NCBI RefSeq assembly: GCF_003367195.1 | Contig: NZ_QRGO01000002.1 | Span: forward strand, 310,001-374,000 | Direction of reading: 5' to 3' | Origin: Undibacter mobilis | Lineage (GTDB): Bacteria; Pseudomonadota; Alphaproteobacteria; Rhizobiales; Xanthobacteraceae | DNA: 64,000 bases | In this document: piece by piece, positions 505 through 56,814 of the stretch | Layout of the letters: each line of letters starts with the position of its first letter | How positions within the stretch are numbered: position 1 is the first letter of the stretch | Program-made: the position numbers and the translations under genes | Notes under the pieces: model-generated | Database searches by the model: none | Told to the model about the DNA's origin: nothing | What the model saw: the letters and a program-made list of their open reading frames with translations, nothing else

Positions 505-1917
505 TCAGTAGGAGACGGTGATCAGCCGCTCTTCGGTCATCTCACGCACCGCATAAGCTGGTCCCTCTCGGCCGAAGCCACTTTCCTTGACGCCACCGAA
601 CGGCATCACATCAACGCGTGCGCTGGATGCTTCGTTGATATGAACACCGCCGAAACGAAGTGCTGGCGCCGTCCGTAGGGCCGTACTGATATTCGAGGTG
701 AAGAGTCCGGCTGCCAGCCCGAATGGAGTCGCATTTGCCTGTGCCACGGCCTCCGACAGTTGGTCGAATTCGATGATACAGACCACGGGGGCGAATATCT
801 CTTCGCAAACGACACGCATATCAGCGCTAACACGGTCAAGAACCGTGGGCATAAAGAGCGCACCGTCATGAGTGCCCCCGACGAGAACGCGAGCACCAGC
901 AGACACCGCTTCGTCGACCCACCGGGCGGCGCGCTCGGCGCTCGCTTGGGAAATCATAGGCCCGATGACCACGGAAGGATCAGCCGGATCGCCTACTTTA
1001 AGGGAACGAACGGCATCCACAAACGCCGGCGTGAATTTTGCCGCAATACGACGATCCACGAAAAGCTTCTGGACCGACGTGCAGACCTGGCCGGCCTTAC
1101 GGAAAGCCGCATTCATAATCTTGGGAATTGCGCGTCCGATATCCGCGTCGCTGCAAACGATCGTGCTCGCTATACTCCCAAGTTCGAGCTGGGTTCCTCG
1201 CAAACCCGCCGCCGATTGAATCTCGCGGCCAACGCGCGTACTGCCGGTGAAGGCATAGAATGCGATCCGCTGGTCCGCGAGCAGACGCTTTCCGATTGCC
1301 TGTCCAGGCCCGTGCACAAGGGCCAGCATTTCCGGCGGCAAGCCGGCGTCGATCAAGAGCTTGCACAGTTCAACCGCAGACAGCGGCGTATGCTCGGACG
1401 GCTTCACGACGACCGAGTTCCCTCCCGCGAGGGCCGGCGCAACCTTGTGGGCCACAACGTTGAGGGGCGAATTGAATGGAGTGATCGCACACACGACGCC
1501 GCGCGGCTTGCGAATGGTGTACCCAATCCTGTCAGCGCTGCCTGCCGCAGCGGTCATCGGAATAAGCTCGCCATTGAGACGCTTGGCTTCCTCCGCCGAT
1601 AACTCAAGCGTTTGAATGCAACGGCGCACCTCGTTCTCGCCGTCCGCCCGTGTGAAACCGACCTCGTCGCGCATCAGCGAGATCAGCCTATCGAAGCGGT
1701 TCTCGAGCAACCTCGCCGCTTCTGACAGGACCCGGTAACGTTCGTATGGGCCCAGTTTCGACGAGGCCACTGCAGCATGCGTTCCGGCGACCGCTTCATC
1801 GACTTGTTCCAGGGAAGCCACGGCCATTTCCCCGAAAGAACGACCTCCGAACTTATCGAACAATCGATCAGTCGACTCTCCGTCTACCCAGCGACCGCCA
1901 ATGAGCAACTTTGACAC
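505..1917 (-). CDS. NAD(P)-dependent aldehyde dehydrogenase
   Basis: 470 residues, full length for the ALDH superfamily. It oxidises an aldehyde to an acid with NAD(P). Visible features are the cofactor region TPFNSPLN and KPSEHTP, the FTGSTRVG turn, the general-base region LELGS, the nucleophile segment GQVCTS, and PFGGVKESGFGREG near the end. The general-base motif reads LELGS where most relatives have LELGG; the catalytic Glu and Cys are both kept. It follows the split TPP decarboxylase with a 12 bp gap, so it may oxidise the aldehyde that enzyme releases. That pathway link is inferred from gene order only. Confidence 0.88.
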   Translation of the reverse strand: MSKLLIGGRWVDGESTDRLFDKFGGRSFGEMAVASLEQVDEAVAGTHAAVASSKLGPYERYRVLSEAARLLENRFDRLISLMRDEVGFTRADGENEVRRCIQTLELSAEEAKRLNGELIPMTAAAGSADRIGYTIRKPRGVVCAITPFNSPLNVVAHKVAPALAGGNSVVVKPSEHTPLSAVELCKLLIDAGLPPEMLALVHGPGQAIGKRLLADQRIAFYAFTGSTRVGREIQSAAGLRGTQLELGSIASTIVCSDADIGRAIPKIMNAAFRKAGQVCTSVQKLFVDRRIAAKFTPAFVDAVRSLKVGDPADPSVVIGPMISQASAERAARWVDEAVSAGARVLVGGTHDGALFMPTVLDRVSADMRVVCEEIFAPVVCIIEFDQLSEAVAQANATPFGLAAGLFTSNISTALRTAPALRFGGVHINEASSARVDVMPFGGVKESGFGREGPAYAVREMTEERLITVSY

Positions 1918-1929
1918 GGCTAGCCTCTG

Positions 1930-2541
1930 CTAAGCTTTTGCGGCAATGCCGTTCATGAAATTGATTCGGATCTTCACCGGGTCTCTTTCGGTAACGCCGG
2001 TCGGCCTCTCCTTGTCGATCTTGGCGACAATCAACCAAGGCCCATCTCCGCTTAGAGTCCGCTCGACCAACGCCTCGAAATGTTCGGCGTCAGCTGCCCA
2101 GAAGGCCTGCTTTATGCCCGCCCCCTTGGCGATGGCCACCAGGTCAGACCCTTTCTCGGTGAGCGTCTTCTGCGCGCCAGTGATGTGGTAAGCGCCGTTG
2201 TCCCAGATGATGATCGCCAGATTCTTGGGAGCAACTGCCGCTACGGTGCCAAAGGAACCGAGCTGCATGAGAATCGACCCATCGCCATCCAGTGCGAATA
2301 CCTTGCGATCAGGCTGCGCGACCGCCACGCCAAGAGCAATGGCTGTCGCCAACCCCATGCTCCCGAGCATATAGAAGTTCTGCTGGCGCTGGCCGCTTGC
2401 CCAAAGATCGAAATTGGAAAATCCGATGCCGCCAATAACGGCTTCCTGGGAATCGAGCTTTTCGACAAGCCTGCGAGTGAGGTCGCTTCGATTAAGGAGG
2501 GACGCGGTCTCTCGCGTAATATCGGGTTCACTGTTCGACAT
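1930..2541 (-). CDS. TPP-dependent decarboxylase, beta (cofactor-binding) subunit, ComE-like
   Basis: 203 residues forming one TPP-binding (PP) domain. The thiamine diphosphate/Mg2+ motif starts at GDGSILMQLGS and ends about 28 residues later at IIWDN. Relatives are the beta subunits of sulfopyruvate decarboxylase (ComE) and the C-terminal half of phosphonopyruvate decarboxylase, which turn a 2-oxo acid into an aldehyde. The separate gene just upstream supplies the pyrimidine-binding half. The 2-oxo acid substrate is unknown; no sulfonate or phosphonate gene nearby settles it. Confidence 0.82.
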   Translation of the reverse strand: MSNSEPDITRETASLLNRSDLTRRLVEKLDSQEAVIGGIGFSNFDLWASGQRQQNFYMLGSMGLATAIALGVAVAQPDRKVFALDGDGSILMQLGSFGTVAAVAPKNLAIIIWDNGAYHITGAQKTLTEKGSDLVAIAKGAGIKQAFWAADAEHFEALVERTLSGDGPWLIVAKIDKERPTGVTERDPVKIRINFMNGIAAKA

Positions 2542-2553
2542 GAGCCACCTCCT

Positions 2554-3078
2554 CTAGACTTTTCGCTTCGTAAGAAGCGGGGAGAGAATGATGGTCGCCG
2601 GCGATTGGGTGGTGAACGCTTGCGAGATCATCCCATCGGCTACGAATTCGACCTGATCGATATCCTGGATTGCAAAGTGCTCCATTCCCAAACTCACCAG
2701 AACCGGGCGCATTGTGCGGCAAACAATCGATTGGCCCAGTTGAAACTCGCCAAGAGTGCCCCGTTCGGACACCATCATAACGATCGGGATTTGATAGGGG
2801 CACGCCAACGACGCCAGCGCGTTGACAACGGTCGCAAAACCGCTGGTCTGCATCAGCACAATACCGCGCGTGCCAGCCATGTAGGCGCCAGCCACGATGC
2901 CGATCGCCTCCTCTTCCCGCGCCGGCGAAATCACCGTGAAGTATGGATCTTCCTCAATGAGCCGGATGAGGCGAGACAGAACATTATCCGGCACATGGCT
3001 AACGAGCCTAACTTCATTCTTTTTGAGAACGCGGATGACGATTTCTTCCCACGGTTCCCGCTTTTTATTTTCCGACAT
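2554..3078 (-). CDS. TPP-dependent decarboxylase, alpha (PYR) subunit, ComD-like
   Basis: 174 residues matching the pyrimidine-binding domain of TPP enzymes. The segment ISPAREEEAIGIVAGAYMAG carries the catalytic Glu that activates the cofactor, and VLMQTSG follows as in ComD-type sulfopyruvate decarboxylase alpha subunits. It lies 12 bp before the beta subunit and should form an alpha/beta enzyme with it. A 146 bp gap with a promoter-like sequence precedes it, so it may begin its own transcript feeding the aldehyde dehydrogenase and hydantoinase genes. Confidence 0.82.
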   Translation of the reverse strand: MSENKKREPWEEIVIRVLKKNEVRLVSHVPDNVLSRLIRLIEEDPYFTVISPAREEEAIGIVAGAYMAGTRGIVLMQTSGFATVVNALASLACPYQIPIVMMVSERGTLGEFQLGQSIVCRTMRPVLVSLGMEHFAIQDIDQVEFVADGMISQAFTTQSPATIILSPLLTKRKV

Positions 3079-3142
3079 GCTCGCCTCGGCCCAGCATTAC
3101 CCGCAGCCACCCATCGACCGTTTAGTTTGCTACTACAAGAGG

Positions 3143-3170
3143 ACAATAAGGAGCGTCGCTTGAGTCACAA
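3143..3170 (-). promoter_or_regulatory. Candidate sigma-70 promoter for the TPP decarboxylase/ALDH/hydantoinase genes
   Basis: On the minus strand TTGTGA (3165-3170) and TATTGT (3143-3148) are separated by 16 bp, in the AT-rich gap between the thioesterase stop and the alpha subunit start. Spacing and sequence fit a -35/-10 pair. This is a pattern match only. Confidence 0.35.
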
Positions 3171-3224
3171 ACGATTAATTTTTGTCTATTTATCATCCTG
3201 CCGTATGAATGGCCGCCGTTCGGA

Positions 3225-3650
3225 TCAGGACGACGAAGCGGTAAGAAAAGTCCCGCGCCCACTGGCGATCAGGCGGCCTTCCAGATCGAACAGTTCCGCT
3301 TCACAGGTCGCCACCTGCTTGCCGAACTTGATCACGCTTCCCTTAGCGACGAGATCGCTGTTCTTGCTGGCCCGATGATAATCAGTTCGCAAGTCGACGG
3401 TAAAAGCTGGCCGTCCAATCTTGCTCATAAGGGAAAAACAAGCCGCGAAATCGATCAGCGCCGAGAGAATACCGCCCTGAGTCTGCCCAACGACTGGATT
3501 GGCAACCCATTCAGAACGCCAAGTGGCTCGCACCTCAATCGTGTCGCTTTCGAGGGCGATCACTTTTATTCCAAGCCAGGAGAGGAAGGCACTTCTGTCA
3601 ACGATCGCCTGCACATCGGCCACGGTTTTGCCGGAAGGATCTATGCTCAT
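3225..3650 (-). CDS. PaaI-type hotdog-fold thioesterase
   Basis: 141 residues with the hotdog thioesterase signature: GGILSALIDFAACFSL holds the helix with the catalytic acid, and FTVDLRTDYHRAS is the following strand, as in PaaI/YbgC-like acyl-CoA thioesterases. It would hydrolyse an acyl-CoA or aryl-CoA. Its ATG overlaps the stop codon of the acyl-CoA synthetase (TGATG), which indicates translational coupling and a shared substrate pool, for example release of a stalled CoA ester. Confidence 0.85.
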   Translation of the reverse strand: MSIDPSGKTVADVQAIVDRSAFLSWLGIKVIALESDTIEVRATWRSEWVANPVVGQTQGGILSALIDFAACFSLMSKIGRPAFTVDLRTDYHRASKNSDLVAKGSVIKFGKQVATCEAELFDLEGRLIASGRGTFLTASSS

Positions 3651-5179
3651 CAGGACACCTTTCCGACTTGCGTTGTCTCTGTAAGGCGTGCCGCTTCCGC
3701 CTCAAGCTTTCGGCGATCGATCTTGCCGACCGTATTCACTGGCAGTACGTCGACGAATACGATCCTCCGAGGATACTGATAGGGAGGCGCGTTCTTCAGC
3801 GCATGCTGCTTAACCTCTTCCTCGTTGAGTGCAGAACCAGCGCGCTTAACGATGAAGGCGTATGGAACAGTGTGCTTGATCTTGTCCGGCGCAGGAACGA
3901 CGACTGCCTGATCGACGTCAATATGCCGCTCGAGCATGAGTTCAACTTCAGCCGGGTAGATGTTGTGTCCACTTGACGTGAACATGTCGTCGGAACGGCC
4001 CACAAAATAAAACCAGCCCTTTTCATCCTTACGGAGGATGTCGCCGGTATTGTACCATCCATTTGCGTCAATACGCTTCTTCATCTGCTCTGGATTTTTG
4101 ACATAGCCGCTCATCATCCCGCGGCCGCGAACATGCAGGGTACCGAAGTTGCCGTCCTCGCCGCCAACCAGCCTGAACTCGTTACCCGCTATCGGCCACC
4201 CAACGGAGTGACGCGGCCGGGTCTCGCCCTGGGGATGCCGGCCGAACAGGGCCGCACTTGTCTCCGTAATGCCGAAGATGAGGTTGATCATTGCATTGGG
4301 AAATAGATCTGCCACCTGGTCCAGCAACTCGTCCGACGCTGGAGCACCGCCCAGCGTGGCCAGCCGCACAAACGAATAGTCGCGGCCTGCTAAGAGATCG
4401 CGCTGCTGAAGCATCATGGCGAACATCGTCGGCACGCCCGAAACGACGGTCGTTTGGAATTTGTTGATCGCTTCGATGTAGGCGCGAGCGTTGAATTTCG
4501 GCATCAAGACGACCGTAGAACCGCCGTAAAGGACGCACTTGATCGAGTTCATCCCGTGCTTGTGATACAGCGGCGCGGCCACGATCATCCGATCAGACGG
4601 AGAAAAATCGCGGTCACTTGAAATCTTCTCCGCGACCCAGCTGTGCGCCCGATGCGACAGCAGAACGCCCTTTGGGCGCCCGGTCGATCCTGACGTGTAC
4701 GGGATAAAGGCGAGCGAATCGTGCTCCGGCCTGAACGGCACCAGCGAGCCACCGTCTTTGAAGGCCTCCAGCCCATCGGTCCCGTCGGAATCAATAACGA
4801 CGATCGGCGTCCCCGATGGGAGTTTTTCACGCAACGCCGCCTCGCAGAAAACCAGCTCGACTTCAGAGTCCTGCATGATCCAGGCGAGCGTCTCCGGCGG
4901 CTGCAGGATGCCCATCATCACCGGGGCAACGCCAGCACGCATCGCGCCATAAAATATCTGCAAGAACTCTGCCCTGTTGGAACAGAGTACGCCGATCCGG
5001 CTCCCAGGCTTGAAACCGCGTTTAAGAAGCCCCCGCGCAATGGCGTCACAGGCGGAGTGATATGCTGGATAATCGATTACACGCGGATTCAGCGGATCGT
5101 ACAGATCAATAATGGCGGTGTGGCCTGCATCTCGGAAATTGCTGCCGAGGCTGCCGAGATTGCGAATCTCTTCGCTCAT
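3650..5179 (-). CDS. AMP-forming acyl-CoA synthetase / ligase
   Basis: 509 residues of the ANL adenylating family. Motifs in order: the P-loop-like YTSGSTGRPKGVLLSH near residue 160, IFGITETSA, YNTGDILRKDEKGW, the hinge VGRSDDMFTSSGHNIYPAEVE, and the C-terminal catalytic lysine in VNTVGKIDRRKLE. It activates a carboxylic acid to its CoA thioester through an acyl-AMP. It overlaps the oxidoreductase upstream by 4 bp and the thioesterase downstream by 1 bp, so these three genes form one transcript. The acid is unknown, probably aromatic or medium-chain. Confidence 0.9.
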   Translation of the reverse strand: MSEEIRNLGSLGSNFRDAGHTAIIDLYDPLNPRVIDYPAYHSACDAIARGLLKRGFKPGSRIGVLCSNRAEFLQIFYGAMRAGVAPVMMGILQPPETLAWIMQDSEVELVFCEAALREKLPSGTPIVVIDSDGTDGLEAFKDGGSLVPFRPEHDSLAFIPYTSGSTGRPKGVLLSHRAHSWVAEKISSDRDFSPSDRMIVAAPLYHKHGMNSIKCVLYGGSTVVLMPKFNARAYIEAINKFQTTVVSGVPTMFAMMLQQRDLLAGRDYSFVRLATLGGAPASDELLDQVADLFPNAMINLIFGITETSAALFGRHPQGETRPRHSVGWPIAGNEFRLVGGEDGNFGTLHVRGRGMMSGYVKNPEQMKKRIDANGWYNTGDILRKDEKGWFYFVGRSDDMFTSSGHNIYPAEVELMLERHIDVDQAVVVPAPDKIKHTVPYAFIVKRAGSALNEEEVKQHALKNAPPYQYPRRIVFVDVLPVNTVGKIDRRKLEAEAARLTETTQVGKVS

Positions 5180-6174
5180 GGGACTACGATGACCTTACCA
5201 AAGATTTGCCTGTCTTCGAGCAGAGCAACGCCTCGCGCCGCCTGCTCAAGCGGCAACCTGGTCTCAACCGCAGGTTTGAGCCGGCCAGAAGCGACATGTT
5301 CGAGACATGCGACTATGTCTTCCGGAACATATGCGCGGCTTCCAATGATTTCTGTCTCGCGATGCCAAAGAAAACGGACATCAATCATACTCATGTGGCC
5401 GGCGGTCGATCCGCAGGTAAGGATGCGACCACCCGTCGCCATGCATCGCTGTGTTTGGATCCAGGTATCACCACCGGTGAAGTTGACCGCTACGTCGACG
5501 CCCTTCTTGCCGCTCGCTGTCCACACCGCGCGCGAAAACTCGGGTTGCTCGACATAGTTGATGATGTGGTCGGCGCCCAATGCCTTGAGTTTGGCACCCT
5601 TCGCCTCGCTCGAAGTACACGCAAAGACCTCACATCCGGCCATTTTTGCGAACTGCAGACACGAAACACCAACGCCGCCGCTTGCTCCAAGAATGAGTAC
5701 CTTTTCGCCCGCCTTGATGTTGCCGCGCGTGAAAAGCATCCGATGCGACGTACCGTACGCAATCGGCAAAGCCGCCGCATCGTCGAAGCTGACGCCCGCA
5801 GGAATCTCGATGAGCTGGCGATGATCGGCCGCGATATACTCGCAAAGGCCACCATTTCCATTTTCGCCAAGAACACCACCGGTTGGAAAACGCGGGAACA
5901 GAACAACCGGTTTGCCGACCCAGGCCTTGTCTACGCCTTCGCCGACGGCCCTTACGATTCCTGCGATGTCGCCGCCGGGAATTCGCGGCATCTTCGTGGG
6001 CATGTCGGGCATGCCACGCATAACGAAGACGTCCATATAGTTCAGACCGCAGGCTTTCACTTCAATGAGCGCCTGCCCCATTTCAGCAACGGGTACGTCC
6101 CACGTCTCCAGCTTTAGTTGATCAATCCCGCCATGCGCACGTAACGCAATGGCTCTCATTGTCGCGCTCGTCAT
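5176..6174 (-). CDS. Zinc-less MDR/quinone oxidoreductase-type alcohol dehydrogenase family protein
   Basis: 332 residues of the medium-chain dehydrogenase superfamily. GGDIAGIVRAVGEG and the cofactor motif LGASGGVGVSCLQFAK are clear; no Cys cluster for a structural zinc is seen, which fits the NADPH:quinone reductase/enoyl reductase branch. It heads an operon divergent from the LysR regulator and overlaps the acyl-CoA synthetase by 4 bp. ATG at 6174 is used here; a second in-frame ATG at 6159 is possible. It is likely to reduce an unsaturated ketone or quinone intermediate. Confidence 0.85.
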   Translation of the reverse strand: MTSATMRAIALRAHGGIDQLKLETWDVPVAEMGQALIEVKACGLNYMDVFVMRGMPDMPTKMPRIPGGDIAGIVRAVGEGVDKAWVGKPVVLFPRFPTGGVLGENGNGGLCEYIAADHRQLIEIPAGVSFDDAAALPIAYGTSHRMLFTRGNIKAGEKVLILGASGGVGVSCLQFAKMAGCEVFACTSSEAKGAKLKALGADHIINYVEQPEFSRAVWTASGKKGVDVAVNFTGGDTWIQTQRCMATGGRILTCGSTAGHMSMIDVRFLWHRETEIIGSRAYVPEDIVACLEHVASGRLKPAVETRLPLEQAARGVALLEDRQIFGKVIVVP

Positions 6175-6254
6175 GAACCACTCGATCCGATACCGAACTA
6201 GGCTTGCGACCGAATATGGACATATCTAGCTGCGGGACAAATTATTAAAACTGC

Positions 6255-6269
6255 TTGATTGACAATCAA
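6255..6269. promoter_or_regulatory. Palindromic LysR-type operator between divergent genes
   Basis: TTGATTGACAATCAA is a perfect 7-bp inverted repeat around one base and contains a T-N11-A core as in LysR-family boxes. It lies between the oxidoreductase start (6174) and the LysR start (6322). A TTGACA hexamer (6259-6264) is embedded in it, and on the minus strand TTGATT is followed after 16 bp by TAATAA, so binding could control both directions. The assignment is by motif and position only. Confidence 0.55.
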
Positions 6270-6321
6270 CACAGATATACAAAAGATCTATACTGGATCA
6301 GTTCTTAAGCGGGTTGGCGTA

Positions 6322-7248
6322 ATGGGAGCAAGCATAAAGCTAAGGCATTTGCGGAGTTTTGTGGCAGTCGCTGAGACCGGCTCCTTCACGGTTGCTGCCA
6401 ACCGTCTGTTCCAAACGCAATCCTCCTTAACCGCGACAATCAAACAGCTTGAAGAGACGGCCGGCTTAAAGCTCTTTGATCGAACTACACGCCGCGTCGA
6501 GCTGACCAAAGACGCCATCTGGTTCAAAGCAGTTGCCGAACGCGTCCTGCTGGATTTCGACAACGCTATCGCTGATCTGCAGGCCGTCTCGAAGAGCCAG
6601 CGCGGCCACATCAAAATCGCAGTCGCGCCATCGATGATGCCCCACGTGCTGGCGCCGACGCTGAAATCGTTCCGCGCGCAATATCCTGAGATCAGTATCT
6701 CGGTATACGATCTCGGGTCGGACAAGATTGAAAGAGCAGTCCTCAATGGGGATATGGATTTCGGCCTGTCGACTCCCCTGAATCGGTTTGCGGATCTTGA
6801 TTATGTTCCAGTGTTGTCGGATCCGTTCGGAGTGATATTTCCGCCTGACCACCCCGTCGGGCGGAAGCCAGGCAAGGTGGCATGGTCGGAACTGCGGCAG
6901 TATGACTACGTTGGGTTGACGTCGGATACCGGCATCGGCGCATTGCTCACGCGCGAGAAGGAACTACTCGAAGGCATCGAGGTGCGCGACTATGCATCAA
7001 GCACCACGTCTCTCCTCGCGCTGCTCCAACTAGGGGGCAAGATTTCGGTGCTTCCATCGCTGGCTGCTCATACGGAGGAGCTATCGAAGTTCAAATTCCG
7101 CGAGCTGCACAAGCCGCAGGTGTTCCGCGAAATATGCCTTATTACGCGTCAACTTCGCTCTCATTCTCCGAGCACTCAGCGTATCCTGGATATTCTGCTG
7201 TCGACCATAAAGTCGTCGAAGCGGTTATTTGGATCCAAGATTTACTGA
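6322..7248 (+). CDS. LysR-family transcriptional regulator
   Basis: 308 residues. The N-terminal winged helix (KLRHLRSFVAVAETGSFTVAANRLFQTQSSL) is the standard LysR DNA-binding domain, followed by a periplasmic-binding-like effector domain. The frame is open back to a TTG at 6259, but that TTG lies inside the operator palindrome, and ATG at 6322 gives the usual distance to the helix. It is transcribed away from the oxidoreductase operon and runs convergently into the CoxG-like gene, 12 bp apart. It probably controls the flanking catabolic operons in response to a substrate or intermediate. Confidence 0.9.
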   Translation: MGASIKLRHLRSFVAVAETGSFTVAANRLFQTQSSLTATIKQLEETAGLKLFDRTTRRVELTKDAIWFKAVAERVLLDFDNAIADLQAVSKSQRGHIKIAVAPSMMPHVLAPTLKSFRAQYPEISISVYDLGSDKIERAVLNGDMDFGLSTPLNRFADLDYVPVLSDPFGVIFPPDHPVGRKPGKVAWSELRQYDYVGLTSDTGIGALLTREKELLEGIEVRDYASSTTSLLALLQLGGKISVLPSLAAHTEELSKFKFRELHKPQVFREICLITRQLRSHSPSTQRILDILLSTIKSSKRLFGSKIY

Positions 7249-50617: not shown

Positions 50618-51502
50618 TCAGCGCATACGCTCGACCAGGAAATCGATGAACAGCCGCACCTTCACCGACAGATGCCGCGTCGGTGCGTAGATGGCGTAGA
50701 GCGTCAATTGCGGCGGCTTGTAATCGTCGAGCGCCGTGACCAGCGCGCCGCTCTTGAGTTCACGCTCGGCGAGAAACACCGGCAGCACGGCAATGCCCCT
50801 GCCCTTGATCGCGGCGTCGCGCAATACCTCGGCATTGTTGACACAGAGCGACCACTTCGGCGCGATCCAGTGATCGGCGCCATCGGGCCCGGTGAACTTC
50901 CACTGGTTGCCGGTGGATAGAAAGCCATAAGTGAGGCATTCGTGCTGGCGCAGATCGGCCGGCTGCTTCGGCTGGCCGTGCTTCTTGAAATAGCCGGGCG
51001 ACGCGCAAACCACGCGATCGATGTCGACGAGCTTGCGCGCGATAAGCGACGACGGCTCGAGTTCGGCGATGCGCAAGGTGACGTCGAGACCTTCCTGCAC
51101 CGGATCGACCTGCTCGTCGGTGAGCACGAGCTGGATTTGCAGATCGGGGTAGCGCTCCATGAAGTCGGCCAGCACCGGGCCGAGCTTGATGGTGCCGAAC
51201 GACATCGGCGCGTTGACGCGCAGCAGCCCGCGCGGCGTCGATTGCAGCTGCGTCGCCGCCTGGTCGGCGGCGTCGAGGTCGGCGAGCACCGCGACGGCGC
51301 GTTCGTAATAAGTCTGGCCGGTCTCGGTCGGGCTCGCCTGCCGCGTGGTGCGGTTGAGAAGCTGGACGCCGAGGTCGCGCTCCAGTTCGCCGACATATTT
51401 GCTGACCGCCGAGCGCGACAGCCGCAGCTTGCGGCCGGCCTCAGCGAAGGATCTCAGTTCGACGACGTTGACGAAGGCCCTGAGGCTGGCGAGCTTGTCC
51501 AT
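50618..51502 (-). CDS. LysR-family transcriptional regulator
   Basis: 294 residues. DNA-binding domain LASLRAFVNVVELRSFAEAGRKLRLSRSAVSKYVGELE at the N-terminus, effector domain after residue 90. ATG at 51502 is chosen over a TTG ten codons earlier. It is divergent from the ring-cleaving dioxygenase and esterase, which it probably regulates in the way of MhqR/other quinone-responsive units, though those use different regulator families in Gram-positive bacteria. Confidence 0.9.
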   Translation of the reverse strand: MDKLASLRAFVNVVELRSFAEAGRKLRLSRSAVSKYVGELERDLGVQLLNRTTRQASPTETGQTYYERAVAVLADLDAADQAATQLQSTPRGLLRVNAPMSFGTIKLGPVLADFMERYPDLQIQLVLTDEQVDPVQEGLDVTLRIAELEPSSLIARKLVDIDRVVCASPGYFKKHGQPKQPADLRQHECLTYGFLSTGNQWKFTGPDGADHWIAPKWSLCVNNAEVLRDAAIKGRGIAVLPVFLAERELKSGALVTALDDYKPPQLTLYAIYAPTRHLSVKVRLFIDFLVERMR

Positions 51503-51521
51503 GGCGGTACTGGCGTCTCCA

Positions 51522-51568
51522 ATTGTCGCCAATTCATAGACAATGCTGCCACGAATTGCCAGATTGTC
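51522..51568. promoter_or_regulatory. Three LysR-type half-sites between LysR and dioxygenase
   Basis: ATTGTC (51522-51527), GACAAT (51539-51544) and ATTGTC (51563-51568). The first two form an inverted repeat with 11 bp between, a usual LysR recognition-site geometry; the third could be the activation site near the dioxygenase promoter. Confidence 0.55.
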
Positions 51569-51644
51569 GTTTCATGGAGGACGGGCCACGTTAGCGGCAC
51601 GAATTCAACGGGGCGAGCGATGCCCCTCAGGAAAGGAGCCTGCC

Positions 51645-52583
51645 ATGTCCGGCATCCACCACGTGACCGCGATCGCTGGCAACGCCCAGCGCAATTTCGA
51701 CTTCTATACCCGCGACCTCGGCCTGCGCTTCGTCAAGCGCACGGTCAATTTCGACGATCCGGGCACCTATCACTTCTATTACGGCGACGAGGCCGGCCAG
51801 CCCGGCACCATCCTCACCTTCTTCCCGTGGGAGCATGCCGCCCCCGGCCGCAGCGGCGTCGGCCAGACGCACCAGACCGCGTTCCGCGTGCCGGCGTCGT
51901 CGCTCGGCTGGTGGACGCATCGCCTCACCGAAAAGGGCGTCGCCTATCAGCCGCTGGAAAAGCGCTTCGGCGAACCGGTGCTCGCCTTCAGCGATCCGGA
52001 CGGGATGAGTCTGGCGCTCGTCGGCGTCACCGGTGCGGAGAATGAGAAGGCCTGGGCCGCCGGCGGCATTCCGGCGGAGCATGCCATCCGTGGCTTCCAC
52101 GGCGTCACCTTGCTGCTGGAGAAGGCTACCAGGACCGGCGCGATCCTCACCGACGTGCTCGGCTACGCGGAAGTCGCGCGTGAAGGCGCGATCATCCGCT
52201 ATCAGGCGAGCGCAACGCCAGGTGCTTATGTCGATATCTACGAAGCCGGCGGCTTCCTGCCGGGCCGCATGGGCCGCGGCTCGGTGCATCACATCGCCTT
52301 CCGCGCGGCTGACGACGCCGAGCAGAACGAAATGGCGAGGAAGCTGATCGAGAAGCACGGCATGCATCCGACCGAGCAGAAGGATCGCAATTACTTCCGC
52401 TCGATCTACTTCCGCGAACCCGGCGGCGTGCTGTTCGAGATCGCGACCGACGTTCCCGGTTTCGCCGTCGATGAGCCGGTCGAGACGCTCGGCAAGGATC
52501 TGAAGCTGCCGGCCTTCCTCGAAGGCCACCGCGCCGAGATCGAGAAGGTGCTGCCGGTGCTCGAAGAGGAGAATGCGTCGTGA
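51645..52583 (+). CDS. Ring-cleaving dioxygenase, VOC fold (MhqO/PcpA-like)
   Basis: 312 residues of two vicinal-oxygen-chelate modules. Iron ligands expected for PcpA-type enzymes are seen: His in GIHHVTAIAGN, His in GSVHHIAFRA and Glu in VLFEIATD. Such enzymes cleave hydroquinones between C1 and C2 and aid quinone detoxification. ATG at 51645 has AGGAAAGGAG upstream; the open frame before it is rejected. It overlaps the esterase by 4 bp. Confidence 0.88.
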   Translation: MSGIHHVTAIAGNAQRNFDFYTRDLGLRFVKRTVNFDDPGTYHFYYGDEAGQPGTILTFFPWEHAAPGRSGVGQTHQTAFRVPASSLGWWTHRLTEKGVAYQPLEKRFGEPVLAFSDPDGMSLALVGVTGAENEKAWAAGGIPAEHAIRGFHGVTLLLEKATRTGAILTDVLGYAEVAREGAIIRYQASATPGAYVDIYEAGGFLPGRMGRGSVHHIAFRAADDAEQNEMARKLIEKHGMHPTEQKDRNYFRSIYFREPGGVLFEIATDVPGFAVDEPVETLGKDLKLPAFLEGHRAEIEKVLPVLEEENAS

Positions 52584-53212
52584 CCGACTTCATTCATCGC
52601 TTTGAAAAGGGGTCGGCGGCGAGTTCGCCGCCGGTCCTCCTGCTGCACGGCACCGGCGCCGACGAGAACGATCTGATCGATCTCGGCCGCGCCGTGGCGC
52701 CCGGCTCCGCTTTGCTGTCGCCGCGCGGCAAAGTGCTGGAGAACGGCATGCCGCGCTTCTTCCGCCGTCTCGCCGAAGGCGTGTTCGACGAGGCCGATGT
52801 GAAGCGTCGCGCCGATGAGCTGGCGGATTTCGTTGTCGCAGCGCGCGAGCGCTACGGCATCGCGGCGCCGGTCGCGCTCGGCTTCTCCAACGGCGCCAAC
52901 ATCGCCGCCGCGATGTTGCTGCAACGGCCGGAGGTTCTGTCCGGTGCGGTGCTGCTGCGCGCGATGGTGCCGCTCACCGATCCGCCGAAGCTGCCGATCC
53001 CCGGCACGCCGGTGCTCATTCTGTCCGGCGCGCAGGACCCGCTGGCATCGCCGGACAATCCGGCGCGGCTGGCGGCGCAACTCAACGAACGCGGCGCAAA
53101 GGCCGAACAACGCATCGTGCCCGGTGGCCATGGTTTGACGCAGATAGATGTTACGCTGGCGGCGGCATTCATGAAGGCGGCGGCGCGTCACGCGGCGGCC
53201 GCGCCCGCGTGA
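52580..53212 (+). CDS. Alpha/beta hydrolase, carboxylesterase (MhqD/YpfH-like)
   Basis: 210 residues. Oxyanion region LLLHGTGADENDL, nucleophile elbow GFSNGAN, acid in SGAQDPLAS and His in GGHGLTQID complete a serine hydrolase triad. The GTG start overlaps the dioxygenase stop (GTGA). The dioxygenase-esterase pairing is seen in quinone/hydroquinone response operons, where the esterase may hydrolyse a conjugate or cleavage product. Confidence 0.88.
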   Translation: MTDFIHRFEKGSAASSPPVLLLHGTGADENDLIDLGRAVAPGSALLSPRGKVLENGMPRFFRRLAEGVFDEADVKRRADELADFVVAARERYGIAAPVALGFSNGANIAAAMLLQRPEVLSGAVLLRAMVPLTDPPKLPIPGTPVLILSGAQDPLASPDNPARLAAQLNERGAKAEQRIVPGGHGLTQIDVTLAAAFMKAAARHAAAAPA

Positions 53213-53246
53213 CGGAATTGTGACTGATCTAGCGCAAAGTCCGTGA

Positions 53247-53288: not shown

Positions 53289-55217
53289 ATGAAGTCGCAA
53301 ATCGTCGAACATCTTGGACAAGGCGAGATCCTCTTGCCGTCCCGCATCGCGGAAGGGCTTGCCGCCAACGACCGGGTCAAGGTGCGCTTGAGCGTGCTGC
53401 AGGCGGCGGTACGGCACGCCTGCGACCCGCAAAGCGCGGCCTTCAACCTGGGCGAAGAATGCCGCTGCGTTAATCTCGATGTCCTGCCGCTGGAAGCGCT
53501 GGTGAACGGCGCCACGCTGACCGCGCGCGACATTCTCGTTGCACCGGGCCTGAGCGTCCTGCGCGACGCCATCTGGGGCGATGTCGATGCCATGATCGAC
53601 GCGGTCGCCGCAGGCGATCCGGATGAAGCCGCTCGTGCCCGCGAACGCGCAACCGCCTTGCGTGCCGACGGCACGGCGCAAGCGGCGGACACGATCGAAC
53701 TTGGCGAAGTAACCCGTCTCGCCAGCGTCTCGAGCGGCAATGGCGGCAGCCTGCATCGGCTGGTCATGGAACTGCACAAGGCCCTCAACCGGCTCGCCGC
53801 CGCGCACGCCGAGGAAGACTTCGCCGGCGCCCATGTTCACGGTCTTCATGCCGACGACCGTACGGCCGTCGCCGCCTTCATGCGCGGCCTCGATGCCACC
53901 CGCAAATTGAAGTTCGATCATCCAGGCCTGTCGACCACCGCCGCGCGGACCGGCAATCGCCTCGTGATCCAGAACGACATCGGCGAGACCGACGCGCACG
54001 TCGTCGTAATCGCCGTCGAGGATCGCGCCGTGACCGTCACCTATACCGACGTGCACCTGCCGCGGGCCAAATTCTTCACCGCTCTGCTGCGCGATTTCCC
54101 GGTCGAGTGGAGCGGGCTGGACCGCAAGAGCGCCGAAGGCCTTGGCGACGATGGCGTGTTCTATCTCGTCAGTGGGCGTCTCGCCGCCGACGGCGCCGGG
54201 CTGCGCGACTCCTTCCTCGAGGCGCTCGGCGCCTCGCTGGTGTTCCTCATCGACTGGAACAAGGCCCGCAAGGTGCTGCGCAACTGGGTGTCCAAAAGCG
54301 ACGCCATCGGCATTCTCGATTGGGGCGCTCGCAACAGATTCGGCCACCGCGGCTTTCTGGCGCTTGGCGGCGACGAACTGGTCGCCTCCGCCGTGCATCA
54401 TGCCGCCCCAAACCGTATCGGCTTCGGCGAAAGACTCGATCGCGCGCTCGGGCGCGAAGCCGCCGTGGAATTCCTGCGGGGCGTACTGCGTGTATCGGCG
54501 GAAGCGTTGCTCGAAGGCGGCTCGGTCCGGCTCGCACGCGATCGCATCGAGGCCGAGCTGGTTCGGCATTTGCAGCGCGCCGATCGGATTCTGCTGTCCA
54601 TCGTTGTTCGCCAATTGGGGCTGGCGCACGATATCGCCGCCGGAATCGCACTGTTCATTGCGGAGCGACAGGCCGGACGGCCCTTCGACAGCGCGGCCTT
54701 TGCGGCCCGGGCACGGCATATTGAAGAGAAGGCCGACCGGATCGCGCACGAAGCGCGACAGGAAATCGATCGCTTCGAAGCCGAAGGCACGATCAAGCGC
54801 CTTGTCGATATCGCCGAGCAAACCATCGACGATCTCGAACAGGCGGCGTTCATCGCCTCGCTGGCGCCCGAGACGATAGACCGCGACCTCCTGAGCCCCC
54901 TCGCCGATCTAGCCGATGCGGCGATCGCAGGCGCCGAAGCCGCGACTCGGGGCGCCGTCGCGGCGTCAGACGTGCCGGACGGACGCCGCATCGACTCCGA
55001 GGACGCCTTCGCCGCCGTGGCCCGGCTCATCGAGGCCGAGCACGACGGCGACCGCGCCGAGCGCGCGCTCACCACCGGCGTGCTGCGCGGGGAAACCGAT
55101 CTGAAGACCGCCCTGTCGGTCCTCGAACTGGCGCGCGCCATCGAGCGGGCGACCGACGGCCTGGCCGCTTTCGGCCATGTCTTGCGCGAGCGCGTGCTCG
55201 CCGAACTCGCCACCTGA
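53289..55217 (+). CDS. Large protein of unknown function with C-terminal PhoU/DUF47-like helical region
   Basis: 642 residues, not recognised as a whole. Residues 1-430 have no motif I can name; there are hydrophobic patches (GASLVFLIDWNKA) but no signal or membrane segment. Residues about 470-640 look like PhoU_div/DUF47: the pattern ARHIEEKADRIAHEARQEI with KRLVDIAEQTIDDLEQAAF and a second AIERATDGLAAFGHVLRERVL resembles its three-helix repeat. It is followed after 16 bp by the PPDK-like gene with GGAG upstream, so they are made together and may interact. Confidence 0.6.
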   Translation: MKSQIVEHLGQGEILLPSRIAEGLAANDRVKVRLSVLQAAVRHACDPQSAAFNLGEECRCVNLDVLPLEALVNGATLTARDILVAPGLSVLRDAIWGDVDAMIDAVAAGDPDEAARARERATALRADGTAQAADTIELGEVTRLASVSSGNGGSLHRLVMELHKALNRLAAAHAEEDFAGAHVHGLHADDRTAVAAFMRGLDATRKLKFDHPGLSTTAARTGNRLVIQNDIGETDAHVVVIAVEDRAVTVTYTDVHLPRAKFFTALLRDFPVEWSGLDRKSAEGLGDDGVFYLVSGRLAADGAGLRDSFLEALGASLVFLIDWNKARKVLRNWVSKSDAIGILDWGARNRFGHRGFLALGGDELVASAVHHAAPNRIGFGERLDRALGREAAVEFLRGVLRVSAEALLEGGSVRLARDRIEAELVRHLQRADRILLSIVVRQLGLAHDIAAGIALFIAERQAGRPFDSAAFAARARHIEEKADRIAHEARQEIDRFEAEGTIKRLVDIAEQTIDDLEQAAFIASLAPETIDRDLLSPLADLADAAIAGAEAATRGAVAASDVPDGRRIDSEDAFAAVARLIEAEHDGDRAERALTTGVLRGETDLKTALSVLELARAIERATDGLAAFGHVLRERVLAELAT

Positions 55218-55233
55218 GACCGGAGAAGCGCCC

Positions 55234-56814
55234 ATGCACATTGCCCGTATCGGCGGCGGCTCGGTCGAACAGCCCGCCGCAGACATGATCGGCAGCAAGG
55301 CCGCCAATCTCGCGCGCATGGCAGCGCTCGGCCTGCCCGTTCCGCCCGCTTTCGTGCTGCCGATCGACTTGTGCGCGGCCATTGTGGCCGGCGAATCCGA
55401 AGCGCGGGCCGCGGTCGGCGAATCCTTGCGCGACGGCATCGCCTTTCTGGAGCAGGCGACGGGACGGAAATTCGGCGACAAGCGCAATCCTTTGCTCGTC
55501 TCGGTGCGTTCCGGCGCGGCACACTCGATGCCCGGCATGCTCGACACCGTTCTGAATGTCGGCTGCGCGCCGGCCGTCGTCGATGGGCTGATCCGCATGA
55601 GCGGTCATGCGCACTTTGCCTGGGATTGCCGGCGTCGTTTCATCGAAAGCTTCGCCCAAGTCGTGCTCCGGCTTGATCCCGCGCCTTTCGCCAGAAAGCT
55701 CGATGAACTCGTTGCCGCCGAGCGTGCCGGCGGTGAGCATGGTCTCGACAGCGAGGCGCTTGAGCGTCTTGCGGCGGAGTACAGGCAGATCGTCGAAAGC
55801 GAAGACGACGTGCTGCCCGACGATCCAATGCAACAACTCGAAGCCGCAGCCCACGCCGTCTATCGCTCCTGGATGAGTCCGCGTGCGGTGACCTATCGCA
55901 GACTTCAGGGCCTCGACGATCTCAAGGGCACCGCCGTAACCGTACAGGCGATGGTCTACGGCAACCGTAATTTCCGGTCGGGCTCGGGTGTCGCCTTTTC
56001 GCGCGACCCTTCGACCGGCGCCGCCGAGCCGGTGATTGACGTACTGTTTGCCGCGCAAGGTGAAGACGTCGTTTCCGGTCAGCGTACACCCGATAATGAA
56101 GCGGCACTGGGACGGCGTTTGACCGATGTGGCGCGGCAATTGCGCGAGGTACTCGGCCTGCTCGAGCGCGATTTCGCCGATGTGCAGGACGTCGAATTCA
56201 CCATCGAGGACGGCAAGCTGTGGATCTTGCAGACGCGGGCCGCCAAACGTACGCCCCGCGCCGCGTTACGAATTGCCATCGATCTCGTTCATGAAGGCCT
56301 GATCGACAGGGAAGAAGCCTTGCGACGCCTCGAAGGCGTGCCGTTCGAACGCCTGGCGCGCCAGCACCTCAACGACGTCGGCGTACCGGCTGCGTGCGGC
56401 ATTTCGGCTTCGCCCGGCATCGCCGTCGGTCGCGCGGCGTTCAATGCCGAGCGAGCCGTCGCCCTCGCCGAATCCGGAACACCCGTCATCCTGCTGCGGC
56501 CCGACACCAGCACGGCCGATGTCGCCGGCTTTTCCGCCGCCGCCGGTATCGTCACGGCTGTCGGCGGCCGCACGGCGCATGCAGCGCTGGTCGCCAGGCA
56601 GATGGGCAAGCCGTGCGTCGTCGGCTGCGCGGCGCTGACCGTCGACACCAACGGACAAGCCGCCAGACTTGGCGAAACGTTGATTAAGGAAGGCGACTGG
56701 CTATCGATCGAAGGCGAGACCGGTGCGATCTACCTTGGCTGCGGCACGGTGATCACCGAACACGCCGAAGCCGAACTTGCCGAAATCGAAAGCTGGCGCA
56801 GCAAGGTCGCCTGA
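55234..56814 (+). CDS. Truncated pyruvate-phosphate-dikinase-like phosphotransferase (ATP-grasp plus His domain only)
   Basis: 526 residues. The N-terminus matches PPDK: GSKAANLARMAALGLPVPP, SVRSGAAHSMPGMLDTVLN near residue 90 and DVEFTIEDGKLWILQTRAAKRT near 325. The phospho-carrier domain holds His449 in GGRTAHAALVARQMG, with the Thr two residues before it that is phosphorylated by PPDK regulatory proteins. Full-length PPDK has about 870 residues; the PEP/pyruvate TIM barrel is absent, and the protein ends soon after the mobile domain. An ATP-driven phospho-His carrier with an unknown acceptor is inferred. ATG at 55234. Confidence 0.82.
   Translation: MHIARIGGGSVEQPAADMIGSKAANLARMAALGLPVPPAFVLPIDLCAAIVAGESEARAAVGESLRDGIAFLEQATGRKFGDKRNPLLVSVRSGAAHSMPGMLDTVLNVGCAPAVVDGLIRMSGHAHFAWDCRRRFIESFAQVVLRLDPAPFARKLDELVAAERAGGEHGLDSEALERLAAEYRQIVESEDDVLPDDPMQQLEAAAHAVYRSWMSPRAVTYRRLQGLDDLKGTAVTVQAMVYGNRNFRSGSGVAFSRDPSTGAAEPVIDVLFAAQGEDVVSGQRTPDNEAALGRRLTDVARQLREVLGLLERDFADVQDVEFTIEDGKLWILQTRAAKRTPRAALRIAIDLVHEGLIDREEALRRLEGVPFERLARQHLNDVGVPAACGISASPGIAVGRAAFNAERAVALAESGTPVILLRPDTSTADVAGFSAAAGIVTAVGGRTAHAALVARQMGKPCVVGCAALTVDTNGQAARLGETLIKEGDWLSIEGETGAIYLGCGTVITEHAEAELAEIESWRSKVA

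Follow-up and report, generated by a model that had tools for sequence, protein, structure and literature searches.

The stretch of Undibacter mobilis DNA analysed here (64,000 nucleotides of contig NZ_QRGO01000002.1, called the window below) encodes two proteins, UP (642 residues) and DN (526 residues), on the same (plus) strand with 16 bp between the genes. DN is a relative of pyruvate phosphate dikinase (PPDK) that lacks the phosphoenolpyruvate (PEP)/pyruvate barrel, and UP-DN is a genuine two-gene unit that is old, widespread, and tightly linked. We put at about even the chance that the pair is a split dikinase, in which the phosphorylated His449 of DN supplies phosphate to an acceptor site located in UP.

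Two peptide patterns, run over one genome for each of 84,980 species, gave 515 stretches encoding a UP relative, possibly representing fewer genes, and the best 80 of these 515 served as the locus set. DN follows UP on the same strand in 78 of the 80, with a gap that is mostly no more than about 20 bp and ranges up to about 180 bp; at the other two loci (L076 and L116), the contig stops right after UP. Both genes have broken frames at L143. A further genome search found DN at 14/14 UP loci, several of them from genomes already in the 80-locus set, and DN also accompanies UP at L067, L157, and L159. UP is present in 9 of 289 genomes of the class, this one counted. When a profile of the paired DNs was run over the same 289 genomes, the nine UP genomes scored 701.5–858 bits, and the next score, 624 bits, belonged to a full-length PPDK. 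Six of the nine had contributed to the profile; the three that had not scored 748 (G072), 751 (G201), and 701.5 bits (G221). The initial annotation had proposed a two-gene unit in which UP may be the acceptor or target, and had set a survey of pairing beforehand as the test. The pairing held, in 78/80 loci and in the same nine of 289 genomes, and the lack of pairing named as contrary evidence was not seen; a conserved unit with UP as the likely acceptor or target is supported.

The presence of UP is patchy: it was found in 8 of 24 genomes of the genus (this one counted; some incomplete), in none of 16 other genomes of the order, and in 4 of 398 genomes of a phylum sample. Within the genus, the UP of G011 includes an exact copy of the UP sequence from Pseudolabrys taiwanensis, which pointed to Pseudolabrys as the probable genus. 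Among 8000 proteins scored, 1867 were UP relatives at E ≤ 0.001, the best 120 being listed. Two plasmids also carry the pair, one from Methylocella tundrae and one from a betaproteobacterium, Aquabacterium olei; among the close relatives of the A. olei UP, several have Burkholderiales names. The distances among UPs and among DNs correlate with r = 0.96 over 38 loci, a value uncorrected for species descent. UP and DN are the only genes common to all 31 loci compared, shadow open reading frames (ORFs) aside, and the next neighbour cluster that is not a shadow ORF reaches 6/31 loci; thus, no general pst or pit context is seen. Neither pst nor pit is among the neighbours named individually, which are those of the window and the two plasmids. 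In public records, UP is named 'phosphate transport regulator' or 'DUF47 family protein', and DN 'PEP/pyruvate-binding domain-containing protein'; these names are probably misleading, since DN has no pyruvate domain. One record titled 'Terriglobia bacterium' (L122) holds an alphaproteobacterial-type pair that groups with a Hyphomicrobiales metagenome-assembled genome, probably a binning error.

The features of the DN gene, all on the plus strand, are as follows.
55222..55228, plus strand: Shine-Dalgarno-like GGAGAAG of DN, recognised in the sequence 5 nt before the DN ATG.
55234..56814, plus strand: DN, a 526-residue barrel-less PPDK (PF01326, PF00391, NF004531).
55234..56250, plus strand: ATP-grasp part of DN, residues about 1–339, with conserved K22, R92, D319, E321, Q333, and R335.
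56482..56724, plus strand: phosphohistidine (swivel) domain of DN, residues 417–497 (PF00391).
56578..56580, plus strand: His449 of DN, the phospho-acceptor predicted from alignment conservation, with Thr447 two residues before it.

DN matches PF01326 (PPDK_N, 2.6e-44) and PF00391 (PEP-utilizers). It passes the curated NCBIfam PPDK model NF004531 with 474.6 bits against a cut-off of 456; this model cannot include the barrel, because it is only 534 positions long. Against the full-length PPDK model TIGR01828 (EC 2.7.9.1), DN scores 536.1 bits over residues 15–524, below the cut-off of 843. Thus, DN has a PPDK-type ATP-grasp domain and a phosphohistidine domain with the catalytic histidine and Thr447, and it ends before the barrel, just as had been read from the sequence initially. 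It is related to PPDK but stands in a group of its own. A full-length PPDK, a 933-residue ORF, lies on the same contig of this 4.1-Mb genome, about 250 kb away, and is 41% identical to DN across nearly all of DN. Residues K22, R92, D319, E321, Q333, R335, T447, and H449 are conserved in paired DNs and full-length PPDKs alike, with H449 present in 38/38 paired DNs; the first six presumably form the ATP site, as in the Clostridium symbiosum PPDK. Three positions beside His449 differ between the two groups: R446 (37/38 paired DNs) is M in 21 of 27 full-length PPDKs, Q456 (36/38) is G in 27/27, and C465 (38/38) is A in 23/27. Such paired-DN-specific residues are what a docking partner other than the barrel would predict.

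DN is not a broken PPDK. ORFs of at least 250 residues in 37 paired loci were searched with the barrel of this genome's own PPDK as the query, and none matched in any of the 37. The homologues with a C-terminal barrel that would have pointed to a recent truncation, as foreseen at the outset, are therefore not seen. The paired DNs are 519–646 residues long as called, N-terminal overrun counted in. A maximum-likelihood tree was built from 71 rows (38 paired DNs, 27 full-length PPDKs, and 6 others, of which L059 is a full-length PPDK truncated where its contig stops). The 38 paired DNs share common ancestry, forming one group with 100/100 support that was recovered in all 200 bootstrap trees and is set off from the full-length PPDKs and the six other rows by a branch of 0.92 changes per column. 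Two actinobacterial barrel-less PPDKs, from Rhodococcus and Streptomyces, fall outside this group on long branches; they stand in for VadK of Mycobacterium tuberculosis, which is not itself in the tree.

UP comprises the following parts.
53289..55217, plus strand: UP, the 642-residue partner protein (ORF).
53289..54524, plus strand: residues 1–412 of UP, one or more unrecognised domains, outside Pfam and NCBIfam and with weak fold matches.
54561..55214, plus strand: residues 425–642 of UP, a PhoU/DUF47 tail with invariant E479/D483, D514/E517, E584/D588, and E619/D623.

Pfam and NCBIfam scans of UP gave no match, in line with the N-terminal part having been called unrecognised. Residues 1–412 were modelled by AlphaFold2 with a predicted local distance difference test score of 87.2 and a predicted template modelling score of 0.78. 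Among 38 UPs, 89 columns are near-invariant (the same residue in at least 37), and 51 of these lie within residues 156–330. They include six histidines (H156, H163, H211, H237, H256, and H353) and, more broadly, K, N, D, R, Q, and W. The most conserved part of UP is outside the tail: six distant relatives are 43–50% identical over residues 150–430 vs 23–27% over 430–642. The PhoU/DUF47-like end that had been suggested is supported by the predicted fold of residues from about 425 to 642 and by the acidic ExxxD motifs of the family, with E479/D483, E584/D588, and E619/D623 near-invariant in the 38 UPs and aligning with the acidic motifs of 3l39. PhoU binds metal at these motifs. UP thus shares the fold and motifs of PhoU/DUF47 (PF01895, PF01865) and has an additional 412-residue N-terminal part.

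In the split dikinase that we propose, ATP would be bound in the ATP-grasp domain of DN and its phosphate loaded onto His449 of the swivel domain, probably with release of AMP and pyrophosphate (PPi), judging by the PPDK type. We infer the loading from homology to VadK and PPDK. The swivel domain would then dock on UP, and not on a PEP/pyruvate barrel within its own chain. The second half-reaction is most naturally assigned to UP, which accompanies DN constantly and thereby takes the place of the missing barrel. Its residues from about 150 to 360 would form the acceptor site, the phosphate being taken by a small molecule or by a UP residue; a small molecule is favoured because invariant polar residues are concentrated here. 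The PhoU tail may serve in dimerisation or regulation, perhaps via metal or phosphate. However, several observations weigh against a split dikinase. The fold search with residues 1–412 returned weak matches throughout and none that is confident (YbjN, a type III chaperone, an Arp2/3 subunit, and the MotA C-domain), and none of these is a kinase. The 31-locus comparison revealed no substrate, pathway, or shared neighbour pointing to a small-molecule acceptor, and a kinase paired with its own dedicated regulator would also explain the conserved adjacency.

The closest precedent for DN is VadK (Rv1127c), a barrel-less PPDK that autophosphorylates on histidine with ATP and Mg2+ (PMC13400623). VadK shows that the ATP-grasp and swivel part of PPDK can load its histidine alone. 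Both proteins combine these two domains without a barrel, and loading has been shown for VadK and is predicted for DN; VadK is described there with methylcitrate-cycle genes and enzymes, whereas DN is tied to UP. HpeHI, CreHI, and PpsAB are two-component small-molecule dikinases, and HpeHI works as two proteins for which no stable complex was detected (PMC12167813). They resemble UP-DN in that the ATP-grasp, swivel-histidine, and substrate-binding domains are spread over two proteins. Their split falls between the ATP-grasp domain and the swivel plus substrate domain, whereas UP-DN is split after the swivel domain; DN holds the first two domains together, so it does not have an HpeHI/PpsAB-type split. 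Furthermore, their ATP-grasp motif is nearer to PEP synthase, whereas that of DN is PPDK-like and its partner ends in PhoU. Rifampin phosphotransferase (RPH) likewise has an ATP-grasp domain and a swivel histidine that serve a non-pyruvate acceptor, but it is a single chain with a C-terminal histidine domain and a rifampin-binding domain (PMC4844700). The PDB sequences matched by the UP profile include no RPH chain.

The initial annotation called the unit undescribed. This stands for the constant partner, which is new, and the conserved promoter element described below is new as well. It does not stand for the charging half, which is of a known kind with a recent precedent, given VadK, the fit to NF004531, and the two-component dikinases (PMC13400623, PMC12167813). 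With confidence falling somewhat short of even, we suggest a third dikinase split, in which a PPDK-derived ATP-grasp/swivel protein works with a separate PhoU-tailed acceptor subunit of new fold and phosphorylates some metabolite or target, with a conserved promoter switch specific to the unit, probably in hundreds of alpha- and betaproteobacterial species. If this is true, the PPDK/RPH dikinase family has a new acceptor module, the PPDK charging half serves as a general phosphohistidine donor of which VadK is one case, and the PhoU fold gains an enzymatic partner.

One feature precedes UP.
53210..53237, plus strand: promoter element, consensus TGACanTTTnATGAATGATCTRGCGCAA, which begins within the stop codon of the preceding gene.

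The pattern NTGA-N6-[GT]CAA occurs 64–88 nt before the UP start in 69/80 loci. The stricter [AT]TGA form is found in 63/84 loci (the window, which has C there, is not counted) vs 1.8% of 4764 control segments; the distant loci L053, L054, L056, and L058, outside the 80 counted, lack [AT]TGA-N6-[GT]CAA. Allowing up to three mismatches, the long pattern has a single site in each of 5/9 genomes, always at the UP promoter; the copy in the window exceeds three mismatches and is not matched by this search. Thus, a conserved promoter switch probably exists in much of the UP-DN group. Two results weigh against a dedicated switch: a 17-base part of the element with two mismatches gives 26 sites in the nine genomes vs 4 for a reversed control, and the betaproteobacterial plasmid lacks the element, as do Xanthobacter, Beijerinckia, Rhodoplanes, and others. 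At L183 1501–1593 (G012), a shorter version sits roughly 90 bp upstream of an ORF for a probable polyhydroxyalkanoate synthase.

The region was also compared with Pho and FixK consensus strings. A Pho-box-like match of at least 13/18 lies within 200 bp upstream of UP, on either strand, in 42 of the 55 loci scored (out of 84) vs 1.9% of 1650 random segments, the loci being related and the counts not independent. Most of the sites (38/42) are on the minus strand, 34 of the 38 at 77–100 nt before the UP start, roughly where the promoter element lies, so that the element resembles a Pho box when read on that strand. By comparison, among the pstS promoters of the same genome set (L201, the second part of a single gene, and L202, a 75-bit match, were set aside), the best site reaches at least 13 in 7/8 and is always on the coding strand; it reaches at least 14 in 6/8 vs 6.0% of 551 control segments, each 500 bp long. 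The ccoN promoters, the negative control, score 10–12. Since the repeat before UP is on the strand opposite to the pstS boxes of related genomes, we do not claim PhoB control, and the link to phosphate status, which rests on this repeat and the PhoU tail, is only suggestive. The promoter element also contains a part similar to an FNR/FixK site. The ccoN promoters of related genomes, with a fragment and a weak match (L216 and L217) left out, carry TTG[AC]-N6-TCAA in 9/11, and a slightly looser pattern occurs in 12.9% of controls. In the UP element, A or C stands in place of the expected T, and FixK/FNR control is not claimed either.

The best-surviving alternative, though an unlikely one, is that DN is a VadK-type regulatory kinase of a metabolic enzyme or regulator, with UP a PhoU-like adaptor or sensor that has no acceptor site and either controls DN or connects it with phosphate status. 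VadK autophosphorylates and interacts with methylcitrate enzymes, and the PhoU fold and the Pho-box-like repeat would suit such a role. However, UP is best conserved outside the tail, no target gene is common to the neighbourhoods of the 31 loci, and the actinobacterial stand-ins lie outside the paired-DN group. A phosphorelay, in which DN would phosphorylate one of the six invariant histidines of UP and phosphorylated UP would be the output protein, is a shade less likely again. Histidine-to-histidine transfer is known from the phosphotransferase system, and the number of conserved histidines fits, but the breadth of the invariant set is more like an active site, and UP matched no family or fold of the phosphocarrier kind, although its N-terminal part gave weak fold matches throughout. 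We consider it improbable that the pair runs in reverse, with UP transferring phosphate to His449 from some phosphorylated compound, and DN making ATP from AMP and PPi as a substrate-level step under low-oxygen or PPi-rich conditions. PPDK chemistry is reversible, as stated in the VadK report (PMC13400623), and the FNR/FixK resemblance would agree; yet that part of the element departs from the TTG[AC] half-site of the ccoN promoters, and nothing identifies a phosphate donor. Recent truncation or a chance neighbourhood without joint function has almost no probability, being contradicted by the pairing survey, the barrel search, the DN tree, and the 289-genome co-occurrence, with no supporting point found.

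Other barrel-less PPDKs occur without UP. They include L155 (Skermanella mucosa pSM-2, 3442–6596), L154 (Azospirillum ramasamyi plasmid, 1660–6611), and L057 (G090); L057 and L154 group with 100/100 support in the tree, and L155 is not placed with them. The Skermanella gene belongs to a gcl-hyi-glxR-pyk cluster, where its first base is the final base of the pyruvate kinase gene, and the Azospirillum gene has pyk nearby on the other strand. A pyk-linked split PPDK would merit attention. L152 (Rhodococcus opacus pROB02, 4839–6551) and L153 (Streptomyces atratus plasmid, 4959–6605) are annotated 'pyruvate, phosphate dikinase'; the Rhodococcus gene lies between P450 and ferredoxin genes, and V replaces the Thr before its His.

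In the window, UP is preceded at 51543–53212 by genes for a glyoxalase-family protein (PF00903) and an alpha/beta hydrolase (PF00561/PF02230), a pair that resembles quinone-detoxification gene pairs. An ORF that looks LysR-like by eye lies on the opposite strand to these at 50618–51532. Directly after DN, on the same strand, is a PAS plus HWE-type histidine kinase (PF07536; 56990–57985), which is not among the clusters common to several loci. The segment 57990–63169 holds a TetR regulator (PF00440) divergent from two ORFs, presumably a membrane-fusion-like protein and a resistance-nodulation-division-type efflux pump of 1062 residues.

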